A stretch of DNA of 5,623 nucleotides from Gemmatimonadota bacterium (GTDB lineage: Bacteria; Gemmatimonadota; Gemmatimonadetes; Longimicrobiales; UBA6960). The DNA is taken from positions 1 through 5,623 of the forward strand of contig JAHWKH010000182.1 in assembly GCA_019347995.1 (NCBI GenBank), read 5' to 3'. The position numbers were made by a program, and so were the translations under genes. Positions 2,748 through 5,623 of this stretch are shown piece after piece. Numbering within the stretch: the stretch's first letter is position 1; each line of letters begins with the position of its first letter. Under the pieces are notes generated by a model that saw only the letters and a program-made list of their open reading frames with translations, had not been told where the DNA came from and did no database searches.

Positions 2748-3335
2748 ATGACGGCGAAGACCAAGGAACCCCGCGGGGACGACGCACCACGCGAATTTCG
2801 CGCCCCGCGCACGATGACGCCCGATGAGCTCGGGGACAATCTCGCCCGCCTCGTGTGGGAGAGCTTCTCCGACTTCATCGCCGACGGCGACTCCGAGATC
2901 GCCCTGCGCGAGTTCGGCGTGACGCTGGAGGACGGGGCCCCCGACACCCACGCGGTGGAGGAGGCGCTGATCTTCCTGATGTGGGCCCACACCCGGGGCG
3001 TACAGCTCGCGTTCGTCGGGCGCGCGCCCGACGACCTCGTGCGCCGGGGTCTCGACGCCCTCCACCAGGCCGTGTTCGAGGACATGGCCGAGCACGGCAC
3101 TCCCGAGTCCCAGCTTCCCTTGTTCGAGGTGCGGGTGGGCGCCCGCTACGCCGAGTACCACGCCGCCGCCGAGACCTCCGACGAGAGCCTTGGGGAGGCC
3201 GTCATGGTGCACCTCATGGACCGGAGCAACGGCGACGGCCGCCACCCCGGGCTCGCCCGTGCGGTGGCCGATCGGGCCATCGCCGTGACCGGCCCCCTGC
3301 GGGACTTCCTCGAGGAGGTCGAGCTGGTGGACTGA
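2748..3335 (+). CDS. Uncharacterised acidic helical protein, 195 residues
   Basis: I do not recognise the family. After a charged, probably disordered tail (residues 1-20), the protein looks mostly helical and strongly acidic. Helices appear at PDELGDNLARLVWESFSDFI, THAVEEALIFLMWAHTRGVQ, DDLVRRGLDALHQAVFEDMA and the C-terminal PLRDFLEEVELVD. A segment LPLFEVRVGARYAEYHAAAE precedes a helix containing VMVHLMDRS. There is no cysteine, signal peptide or membrane span, so it is cytoplasmic. The start at 2748 has only a weak AGGA close to the ATG. The ATG at 2814 (MTPDELGDN) is a credible shorter alternative that would remove the disordered tail. It stands alone on the plus strand and its stop is 20 bases from the end of the convergent paa operon. 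A link to that operon is not shown by the arrangement. Confidence 0.75.
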   Translation: MTAKTKEPRGDDAPREFRAPRTMTPDELGDNLARLVWESFSDFIADGDSEIALREFGVTLEDGAPDTHAVEEALIFLMWAHTRGVQLAFVGRAPDDLVRRGLDALHQAVFEDMAEHGTPESQLPLFEVRVGARYAEYHAAAETSDESLGEAVMVHLMDRSNGDGRHPGLARAVADRAIAVTGPLRDFLEEVELVD

Positions 3336-3355: not shown

Positions 3356-3553
3356 TCACCCGTCCCCTGGGACGCCGCGGCGGTCGGCGCCGACACCGGT
3401 GCCCCGCCACTTGAGGATCTCGAAGGGGCTCCGGCAGCGGCGGCACCAGTAGGTGGCGACGGACGCGTGGGAGCCGAACGCGTTCATGAGCTCGGTCTCC
3501 CGCTCTTCGCAGAAGGGGCAGGACGGGGTCGTCGGGAGTCCGGCGCCGGTCAC
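3356..3553 (-). CDS. Stand-alone PaaD-type zinc-ribbon protein (C-terminal half of a split PaaD)
   Basis: This 65-residue protein has two Cys-x-x-Cys knuckles, C12/C15 (CPFC) and C37/C40 (CRRC), framing an FGS turn and a YWC strand, and then SPFEILKW. This matches, position by position, the C-terminal tail of E. coli PaaD as I recall it (CPRC, EFGST, YRCDSCREPFDYFK). It therefore looks like the zinc-beta-ribbon of PaaD encoded as a separate gene. In the family the ribbon is thought to help PaaD mature the epoxygenase or its reductase. Zinc binding is inferred from the four cysteines. The GTG start is 2 bases after the paaC stop, with GGAG five bases before it inside the paaC end, so translation is probably coupled. 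A 15-residue Gly/Arg-rich tail (51-65) follows the ribbon and has no counterpart in the E. coli protein. It is the last gene of the operon. Confidence 0.8.
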   Translation of the reverse strand: MTGAGLPTTPSCPFCEERETELMNAFGSHASVATYWCRRCRSPFEILKWRGTGVGADRRGVPGDG

Positions 3554-3555
3554 GG

Positions 3556-4353
3556 CTACTCCACGAAGAGGGCGCGATTGCGGTCACCCCGGGCGCGCTC
3601 CACGGCGTCGGTGGAGGGCCGGCCGGGTCCGCGGCCGCGGGTCTCGTCCCACCCCGAGCGGTCGGCTTCCACCGCCCCCGGATCCACGTCCGTGTGCGCC
3701 AGCACCGACGCGACGCTCTCCCCGAAGCGCCGCTCCAACGCGTCGGGGGACGCCGTAAGGCCGGCCTCGACGAGCCGGCCGAACGTGGCGTCGTCGGGGG
3801 CGAGCCAGGCCAGCGTGCGGGGCAGCATGGCGGCGATGGCCTCGCCGATGCGCGCCTTCGAGGCGTCGGTGCCCGCCGCGAGACGGCGCACCCAGGCGTG
3901 CCCCAGATCCCGGTGGAACTCCTCCTCCGCGAGCATCTTGGGCACGCGGCCGCGGGCCTGCTCGTAGCGTCCCTCGGCGAAGCCCTCCAGGGCCGTGGCG
4001 AGGGCGCCGTCCACCACGACCATCGCGGCGACCACGTCGGCCCAGTCCCCAAGCTCCTCGTCCAGCACGTCCAGGCTGGCGTAGGCCTCGGGCGGCCGCT
4101 CGTGCTCCACCTCGACGGGGTCGTCGCCGAAATCCTTGAGCATGGCGTAGAGCAGGCGTGCGTGGCCCCACTCGTCCTGCGCCATGGAGGAAGCGGCGAT
4201 GCCCGTCTCGATGGACGGCGCCCCCAGCAGCCAATCGCTGAAGCGGATGCCCAGGAGGCGCTTGGTGTCGGCCAGCGTGAGGATGTGGCGCCGCAGCGCC
4301 TCCCGGACCGGCGCGTCCAGCTCGTCGACGCTCTGCACCGGCTCGCCCGCCAT
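3556..4353 (-). CDS. paaC: 1,2-phenylacetyl-CoA epoxidase subunit PaaC
   Basis: PaaC pairs with the catalytic PaaA in the ring-epoxidising complex, which converts phenylacetyl-CoA to its 1,2-epoxide in the cytoplasm. The 265-residue helical protein is a little longer than E. coli PaaC (about 248). It shows the ferritin-like four-helix layout: LADTKRLLG (28-35), AQDEWGHARLLY (58-69), MVVVDGALATAL (111-122) and AEEEFHRDLGHAWVRRL (142-158). These give candidate metal ligands Asp29, Glu61/His64, Asp115 and Glu144/His147, that is, both ExxH motifs intact. As recalled, the E. coli protein reads LDLLGQAR and EARYH at the two ExxH positions, so the ligands are lost there. The ATG overlaps the paaB stop by one base (TGATG), with GGGGAG just upstream. 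The C-terminal region (226-260) is Arg/Gly/Asp-rich and probably flexible. Family assignment is strong; metal binding is inference. Confidence 0.92.
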   Translation of the reverse strand: MAGEPVQSVDELDAPVREALRRHILTLADTKRLLGIRFSDWLLGAPSIETGIAASSMAQDEWGHARLLYAMLKDFGDDPVEVEHERPPEAYASLDVLDEELGDWADVVAAMVVVDGALATALEGFAEGRYEQARGRVPKMLAEEEFHRDLGHAWVRRLAAGTDASKARIGEAIAAMLPRTLAWLAPDDATFGRLVEAGLTASPDALERRFGESVASVLAHTDVDPGAVEADRSGWDETRGRGPGRPSTDAVERARGDRNRALFVE

Positions 4354-4637
4354 CAGGAGTCTCCCCCGTACGGCTGCCCGGGCGGCACCTCTGGGTCGTC
4401 CGCCTCGGGTCCGGCGCCCACCGCACGCCGCCCCGCAGCGAAGGGGCCGTCGTCCCGGTTCACGGGGATGATGGCGGCGCGGGGCACGACGCACATCTCG
4501 AACCAGTTCTCCTCGTCGTACGTCTTCCAGGCGTAGACGCGCGCCATCTCGTCGTCGAGGGCGTGCAGGTAGCCGATGTGGTGCAGGGGCTCGCCCCGGT
4601 TCTTGCGGGCGAAGACGTCGTAGACGGTCTCGAGCAT
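4353..4637 (-). CDS. paaB: 1,2-phenylacetyl-CoA epoxidase subunit PaaB
   Basis: PaaB is the small bridging subunit that links PaaA-PaaC units of the epoxidase. The 94 residues fit the family: ETVYDVFARKNRGEPLHHIG (3-22) corresponds to the EVFVRGKxGLxHxHVG start of known PaaB proteins. YLHALDDEMARVYAWKTYDE (23-42) matches the LHAxDxxMAxxxARDxY helix, and VVPRAAIIPVNR (50-61) matches the final strand. A Pro/Gly/acidic tail (62-94) without obvious structure follows. The ATG at 4637 was chosen because the family homology begins at once. No good Shine-Dalgarno is visible in the 32-base gap after the upstream gene, so translation may depend on read-through coupling. Its stop overlaps the paaC start by one base. 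Confidence 0.9.
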   Translation of the reverse strand: MLETVYDVFARKNRGEPLHHIGYLHALDDEMARVYAWKTYDEENWFEMCVVPRAAIIPVNRDDGPFAAGRRAVGAGPEADDPEVPPGQPYGGDS

Positions 4638-4669
4638 GAAGAGGGCGTTATCCCGGAGGAGAGGTCGGT

Positions 4670-5101
4670 TCAGGCGGCGCCGACGCCGAGGCGCCGCAGG
4701 CGGCGGCGCCCCTCGTCGCTGATGCGGTCGGTGGTCCACGGTGGATCCCATACCTCGGCGATCTCGACGGCGTCGATCCAGGGCTCCCGGAGGAGGCGGT
4801 CGCGCACGTCCTCCTTGATGAACTCCATGCAGGGGCACGCCGTGGCCGTGTAGGTCAGGGCGACCCGCGCGGTGCCGGCCTCCACCTCGAGGCCGACCAC
4901 CAGGCCCAGGTCCACCACGCTGATGGGGATCTCGGGGTCGAGCACCTCGCGCAGGCATGCGCGCGCGGCCGCCGCAGGGTCCGCCGGGGCCGTGGGCAGC
5001 GGCTCGGACCAGACGTCGCGCCCCCCGCTCTTGTGCGTGGAGACGTGGAGCGGGATGCCGGCGTCGATGCCGCGCAGGGGACGGACGCCGGGCAGCTTCA
5101 C
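4670..5101 (-). CDS. paaD: PaaD-like DUF59/MIP18-family maturation protein lacking the zinc ribbon
   Basis: PaaD-type proteins are thought to assist metal or Fe-S maturation of the epoxidase system. The 143 residues contain the DUF59/MIP18 core (about 46-140). LREVLDPEIPISVVDLGLV (50-68) matches the PDPEIPxxxxxDLG opening. LTYTATACPCMEFI (82-95) carries the conserved Cys89-Pro plus Cys91, and VWDPPWTTDRIS (117-128) matches the xDPxWTTDxxx signature. E. coli PaaD continues after this core into a four-cysteine zinc ribbon. Here the protein stops at GVGAA, and the ribbon is a separate gene after paaC. An N-terminal segment of about 40 residues (including GIDAGIPLHVSTHKSGG) precedes the core and has no known role. 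The start is a GTG overlapping the paaA stop (GTGA), with no clear ribosome site, so it is probably coupled to paaA. The GTG choice is moderately sure. Confidence 0.87.
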   Translation of the reverse strand: MKLPGVRPLRGIDAGIPLHVSTHKSGGRDVWSEPLPTAPADPAAAARACLREVLDPEIPISVVDLGLVVGLEVEAGTARVALTYTATACPCMEFIKEDVRDRLLREPWIDAVEIAEVWDPPWTTDRISDEGRRRLRRLGVGAA

Positions 5102-5623
5102 GCCGCGGCCGCCGTGCCGTTCAGCCAGGCCTCGACCTGCCCCCGGGAGCGGCGGACCGACTCCACGTAGCGCTGGTTCATGGGTCCGCGGCCCTTCCAC
5201 CGCTCGAAGACCTCGTCCCACGAGATCTGGCCCTCGTCGAAGGCCCAGCGCTTCGCCTCGGCGTCGTAGGCGCAGGGGAAGGGGAAGTCCAGCTCGTACG
5301 CCTCCTTCTCCTCGTCGTAGTGGGCCGGGACGTCCAGGCCCAGCGACTCGCACAGCGGCACGGTGGACGCCATCCACACCTGGCGGAGCTGGTCGTTGGT
5401 GAGGCCCTTGAGCCGGTAGTCGAGCTGGCCCGAGTGGCGCTTCATGTCGTCGGGAAGCCCGAACCACTCCACCGTCATGGGGAACATCCAGTCCACCGCC
5501 CGCTGGACCATCTCGCGGGCCTCGCCGCCCGCCTTGGCCAGGCGGCGCATCCACACCTCGCCGTGGCGCAGATGGAAGGTCTCCTCCATATCGACCTTAA
5601 CCAGCGCCCGCTTGAGGGGGCCG
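5098..5623 (-). CDS. paaA: 1,2-phenylacetyl-CoA epoxidase catalytic subunit PaaA, C-terminal fragment (start beyond right edge)
   Basis: PaaA is the diiron oxygenase subunit that epoxidises the ring of phenylacetyl-CoA, with electrons from the PaaE reductase. The fragment is 174 residues of a protein usually about 310 long. It opens with GPLKRALVKVD followed by MEETFHLRHGE, which aligns with the [20 protein letters not shown] region of E. coli PaaA. Glu14 and His17 of the fragment form the second ExxH iron-binding motif. The downstream part is typical of the family: WMFPMTVEWFGLPDD, then LKGLTNDQLRQVWMASTVPL and ISWDEVFERWKGRGPMNQR. The first ExxH motif and other ligands lie outside the window. 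The frame is open to the right edge, so the ATG at 5589 is internal. Its stop overlaps the GTG of the next gene. It is the first visible gene of the operon. Confidence 0.93.
   Translation of the reverse strand, partial: GPLKRALVKVDMEETFHLRHGEVWMRRLAKAGGEAREMVQRAVDWMFPMTVEWFGLPDDMKRHSGQLDYRLKGLTNDQLRQVWMASTVPLCESLGLDVPAHYDEEKEAYELDFPFPCAYDAEAKRWAFDEGQISWDEVFERWKGRGPMNQRYVESVRRSRGQVEAWLNGTAAAA

Follow-up and report, generated by a model that had tools for sequence, protein, structure and literature searches.

The operon described here, from a Gemmatimonadota bacterium, encodes the two domains of the phenylacetate-pathway protein PaaD, a helper for a bacterial enzyme acting on aromatic rings, in separate genes. 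It is located on the minus strand of a 5,623-nucleotide stretch of DNA (assembly GCA_019347995.1, contig JAHWKH010000182.1), referred to below as the window, and consists of paaA, which is cut at the edge, D, paaB, paaC and Z in close packing. D corresponds to the DUF59 core of PaaD and Z to its zinc ribbon, and together they bring both halves of the NCBIfam PaaD model TIGR02159 into one operon. In Gemmatimonadota, the gene order is conserved, D and Z are retained jointly, and the two-gene form and fused PaaD exclude each other almost completely. The operon probably encodes a deep-branching PaaABC-type diiron aryl-CoA oxygenase in which PaaD is still two genes and D and Z form a two-chain PaaD, the canonical protein having been fused later. 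The genes of the operon are as follows (amino acids, aa).

5098..5622, minus strand: paaA-like catalytic subunit, C-terminal 174 aa, running off the window end (PF05138, E = 2.2e-28)
4670..5101, minus strand: D, DUF59 core of PaaD lacking the ribbon, 143 aa (PF01883, E = 1.7e-14; NF041868, E = 3.3e-24)
4353..4637, minus strand: paaB-like subunit (PF06243, E = 9.9e-7)
3556..4353, minus strand: paaC-like structural subunit, 265 aa (PF05138, E = 7.1e-42)
3356..3553, minus strand: Z, zinc ribbon gene (PF23451, E = 3.7e-13; TIGR02159 positions 102-144)

A first-pass annotation had described PaaD as two genes flanking paaB and paaC, and profile searches with both products confirmed this, each matching its own half of the PaaD model. 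The DUF59 core, said to end without a ribbon, matches PF01883 and covers positions 1-88 of the 146 positions of TIGR02159. Its score of 70.2 bits does not reach the cut-off for canonical PaaD (108.15 bits), and the scores for SufT (73.2 bits, cut-off 202.6) and SUF_assoc (70.2 bits, cut-off 143.4) are likewise too low. A search with D retrieved 1102 proteins, the window's own included. The 65-residue gene proposed as the C-terminal ribbon of PaaD passes the gathering cut-off of PF23451, the PaaD zinc ribbon family (49.3 vs 27 bits). Z carries two CxxC knuckles, and no rubredoxin family was matched in Pfam or NCBIfam up to E = 1. At E <= 1e-3, the search with Z returned 124 proteins, again counting that of the window; the best 120 of these 124 measure 47-93 aa, a range limited by the search itself. 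The N-terminal motif SGGRDxWSxP of Gemmatimonadota-type D is invariant in 17 aligned rows and occurs in none of the fused rows.

Scanning genomes with the alignment of D gave 80 loci (the best 80 of 84), which are mostly Gemmatimonadota by title, with two Chloroflexota (L086, L087). D, paaB, paaC and Z share one strand in 74 of the 80, where 984-1250 bases separate Z from D; this bears out the earlier statement that the separation is no sequencing error. In the remaining six (L019, L056, L058, L072, L083, L086), the sequence stops 1-100 bases past the last operon gene found. Fused PaaD appeared in 0/80 loci, a count that gives no frequency because both scan patterns derive from split-type D. 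Five loci (L027, L028, L038, L045, L058) come from metagenome bins titled Gammaproteobacteria or Rhodospirillaceae with Gemmatimonadota-type operons, and these titles are possibly wrong; L027 and L058 were placed in a tree. A second DUF59 gene is located 5' of paaA in 69/80 loci (L008-L087), a place the window ends short of; that of L014, the only one scanned, is nearest to the SUF type, under the cut-off.

Of 200 Gemmatimonadota genomes, 67 exceed the cut-off of the full PaaD model and 134 that of the ribbon. The 134 are made up of the 67 fused genomes, 66 whose ribbon is free-standing, and G095 with a match of 23 positions and 29.3 bits. In 65 of the 66, the free ribbon follows a DUF59 match on the same contig and strand at a distance of 939-1280 bases; in G061 the two matches are on different contigs. 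No clear case of both forms together was seen in these 200 genomes, with second partial ribbon matches in the fused genomes G037 and G112 (27 and 36 positions, 39.9 and 28.5 bits). In 201 Chloroflexota genomes, the ribbon was above the cut-off in 60, namely 20 fused and 40 with 42 other ribbons. Among these 42, 37 follow a DUF59 match at a distance of 790-1322 bases and one at 351 bases, two are unpaired, and in G337 (L125) and G401 (L126) the ribbon precedes paaA in the order Z-A-D-B-C. G340 has both the fused and the free-standing form. One of the 20 fused frames (G223, L124 4073-4612) has an in-frame stop within its DUF59 part, adjoins paaA/paaC-like fragments and resembles a decayed copy.

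Canonical fused PaaD (TIGR02159; E. coli K-12 b1391) and the window share the same domains, the same partners A, B and C, and an FG plus CxxC..CxxC pattern in the ribbon. They differ in that the E. coli protein is one chain spanning TIGR02159 positions 1-146, encoded after paaC, whereas D precedes paaB in the window and paaB and paaC separate its two genes. In addition, one extra residue follows DPE-P in 13 fused rows and is absent from 19 split rows. The haloarchaeal RefSeq families PaaD and PaaE (NF041868, NF041869; Haloferax mediterranei pHME505) also have the DUF59 core and the ribbon as separate genes. On pHME505, however, the order is A-B-C-D-Z, with D adjoining Z and paaK in the cluster, and the window proteins score below both cut-offs (85.4 vs 180 and 22.2 vs 100 bits). 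A survey beyond this operon found the window's order, A-D-B-C-Z, with both genes separate in other haloarchaea, Thermus, Chloroflexota and an Agrobacterium plasmid. Near seven haloarchaeal operons (L003-L006, L132, L133, L135), a GNAT acetyltransferase adjoins a small 2Fe-2S protein, which is a possible candidate for an electron donor.

The first-pass annotation read the arrangement as a split PaaD; the two-gene PaaD is upheld, but the trees favour fusion of older separate genes over an origin by splitting. When the PaaA tree was rooted with PaaC as the outgroup, PaaA from A-D-B-C-Z operons formed one clade (support 90/91) apart from the adjacent and fused rows (100/99), while fused PaaA alone reached just 77/68. 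The PaaC tree is concordant, with support of 90/80 for split rows, 100/99 for adjacent and fused rows together and 100/97 for fused rows by themselves. In a larger tree, split PaaA again grouped together (94/97) and split PaaC did not form one clade. The tree of D cores, from which adjacent D was left out, places the fused rows in one clade (99/97) with split D outside them. Fusion is preferred, with moderate confidence, because unfused states flank the deepest fork and one fusion stands against two fissions. The two-gene PaaD may thus be the older, not-yet-fused form. Initially, D would have stood between paaA and paaB, with Z after paaC; D would then have relocated next to Z, as still found in Haloferax-type operons, and the two would finally have fused to canonical PaaD. 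An ancestral fused PaaD might instead have broken, with D moving between paaA and paaB and a second break in Haloferax-type archaea. Such a history fits the fused protein being the best-studied form and the coexistence of both forms within Gemmatimonadota and within Chloroflexota, but it requires two events on the PaaC-rooted trees, and for D, A and C alike the split rows fall outside the fused ones; it is considered unlikely.

The pathway context was compared in 50 hand-picked Gemmatimonadota genomes, 25 two-gene and 25 fused. All 50 contain exactly one ribbon and exactly two PaaA/PaaC-family places above the cut-off, with three further ones below. Bifunctional PaaZ was above the cut-off in 25/25 fused and 0/25 two-gene genomes, PaaG in 8/25 and 0/25, and PaaK in 5/25 and 0/25. 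PaaG exceeded 300 bits in 24/25 fused genomes, and the top two-gene score was 236.2. The lack of PaaK in the two-gene genomes calls for caution about phenylacetyl-CoA as the substrate, although 20/25 fused genomes also lack it. Within this sample, canonical ring-opening PaaZ accompanies the fused form, and the role of the two-gene form seems to be a parallel one. The PaaE reductase was above the cut-off in 1/25 fused and 0/25 two-gene genomes; 41/50 had no match to the model whatever, seven had weaker or partial matches (30-33 bits in 3/25 two-gene genomes), and one further full-length match (202.9 bits) is in a fused genome.

PaaD is required in the cell and dispensable in vitro, and whether its client is PaaA or PaaE is left unsettled in the sections consulted of PMC4498308 and PMC9493321. 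The ribbon in 50/50 genomes, set against a PaaE model that mostly goes unmatched, suggests that the client is the oxygenase. As a two-chain PaaD equivalent, D and Z would assist in its loading or maturation, most likely at the diiron site of PaaA, a role earlier suggested for E. coli PaaD. The scarcity of PaaE, below the cut-off in every two-gene genome, could also suggest that Z is a redox-active metal protein acting with PaaABC rather than a zinc-binding ribbon, in line with its CxxC knuckles and the RefSeq name 'PaaE' for the haloarchaeal ribbon. This reading appears improbable: E. coli PaaD contains the same ribbon although a separate PaaE exists, Z matched no rubredoxin family in Pfam up to E = 1, and PaaE is below the cut-off in 24/25 fused genomes as well. 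Similarly improbable is a reading in which D belongs to the general iron-sulfur assembly proteins of the SUF type, Z is a ribbon unrelated to PaaD, and neither has PaaD function. The SufT and SUF_assoc scores of D, close to its PaaD score and all below cut-off, count in favour of it, as does the D-core tree; SufT (TIGR03406) and the SUF-associated family (TIGR02945) share the DUF59 family with D, whose stretch has a different end.

The window's PaaB and PaaC are below the equivalog cut-offs of the 1,2-phenylacetyl-CoA epoxidase models TIGR02157 (27.6 vs 85.45 bits) and TIGR02158 (105.9 vs 133.35 bits); its PaaA is partial, and a full-length relative of it from L014 is below that of TIGR02156 (135.6 vs 280 bits). 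The carboxylate and His motifs DE..H, D and EE..H, presumed to hold the diiron-site ligands, align between PaaA relatives and E. coli PaaA; the window retains EE..H alone because paaA is cut by its edge. D starts with GTG, overlapping the paaA stop (GTGA). The start of paaB was set at the ATG at 4637, and its reading frame stays open upstream. A convergent gene at 2748-3335 on the plus strand (195 aa) matches no Pfam family above the cut-off. Its relatives occur in 37/80 loci, are convergent in 37/37 and typically adjoin Z.

Neighbouring genes are laid out like a phenylacetate pathway whose parts are unfused, and a putative aryl-CoA ring epoxidase is therefore the best guess for the operon product. 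Downstream of the operon, G058 encodes enoyl-CoA hydratase-family proteins, a stand-alone aldehyde dehydrogenase and a 3-hydroxyacyl-CoA dehydrogenase. Judged by position and similarity, G021 has a comparable series of genes; its thiolase comes closest to the 3-oxoadipyl-CoA thiolase models, under their cut-offs. In Thermus, a nearby protein resembles gamma carbonic anhydrase and PaaY, under both cut-offs. PaaZ is apparently unfused at three loci: L130 and L139 encode an aldehyde dehydrogenase, and L138 and L139 a distinct MaoC/PaaZ C-terminal protein. More tentatively, A-D-B-C-Z could be a surviving pre-fusion form of a second pathway for aryl-CoA ring epoxidation, parallel to the canonical one. 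Both PaaD and PaaZ would be unfused in it, D and Z would act on the diiron oxygenase rather than on the reductase, and the substrate would be an aryl-CoA other, or wider, than phenylacetyl-CoA.

Some ribbons of A-D-B-C-Z operons are already annotated as 'PaaD-like zinc ribbon domain-containing protein', and the gene is unannotated in the Thermus, Agrobacterium and several haloarchaeal records examined. Judged from titles and abstract openings, no publication announcing a two-gene PaaD was found. PMC13186573, in the part consulted, defines PaaD by PF01883 and describes archaeal pathways as mostly incomplete; the corresponding part of PMC10694973 gives Haloferax paaA, B, C and D as separate genes, the ribbon being unmentioned there. 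The two-gene form is easily overlooked, as a PF01883 search alone misses the ribbon. Its separate genes allow each PaaD domain to be removed and tested individually.
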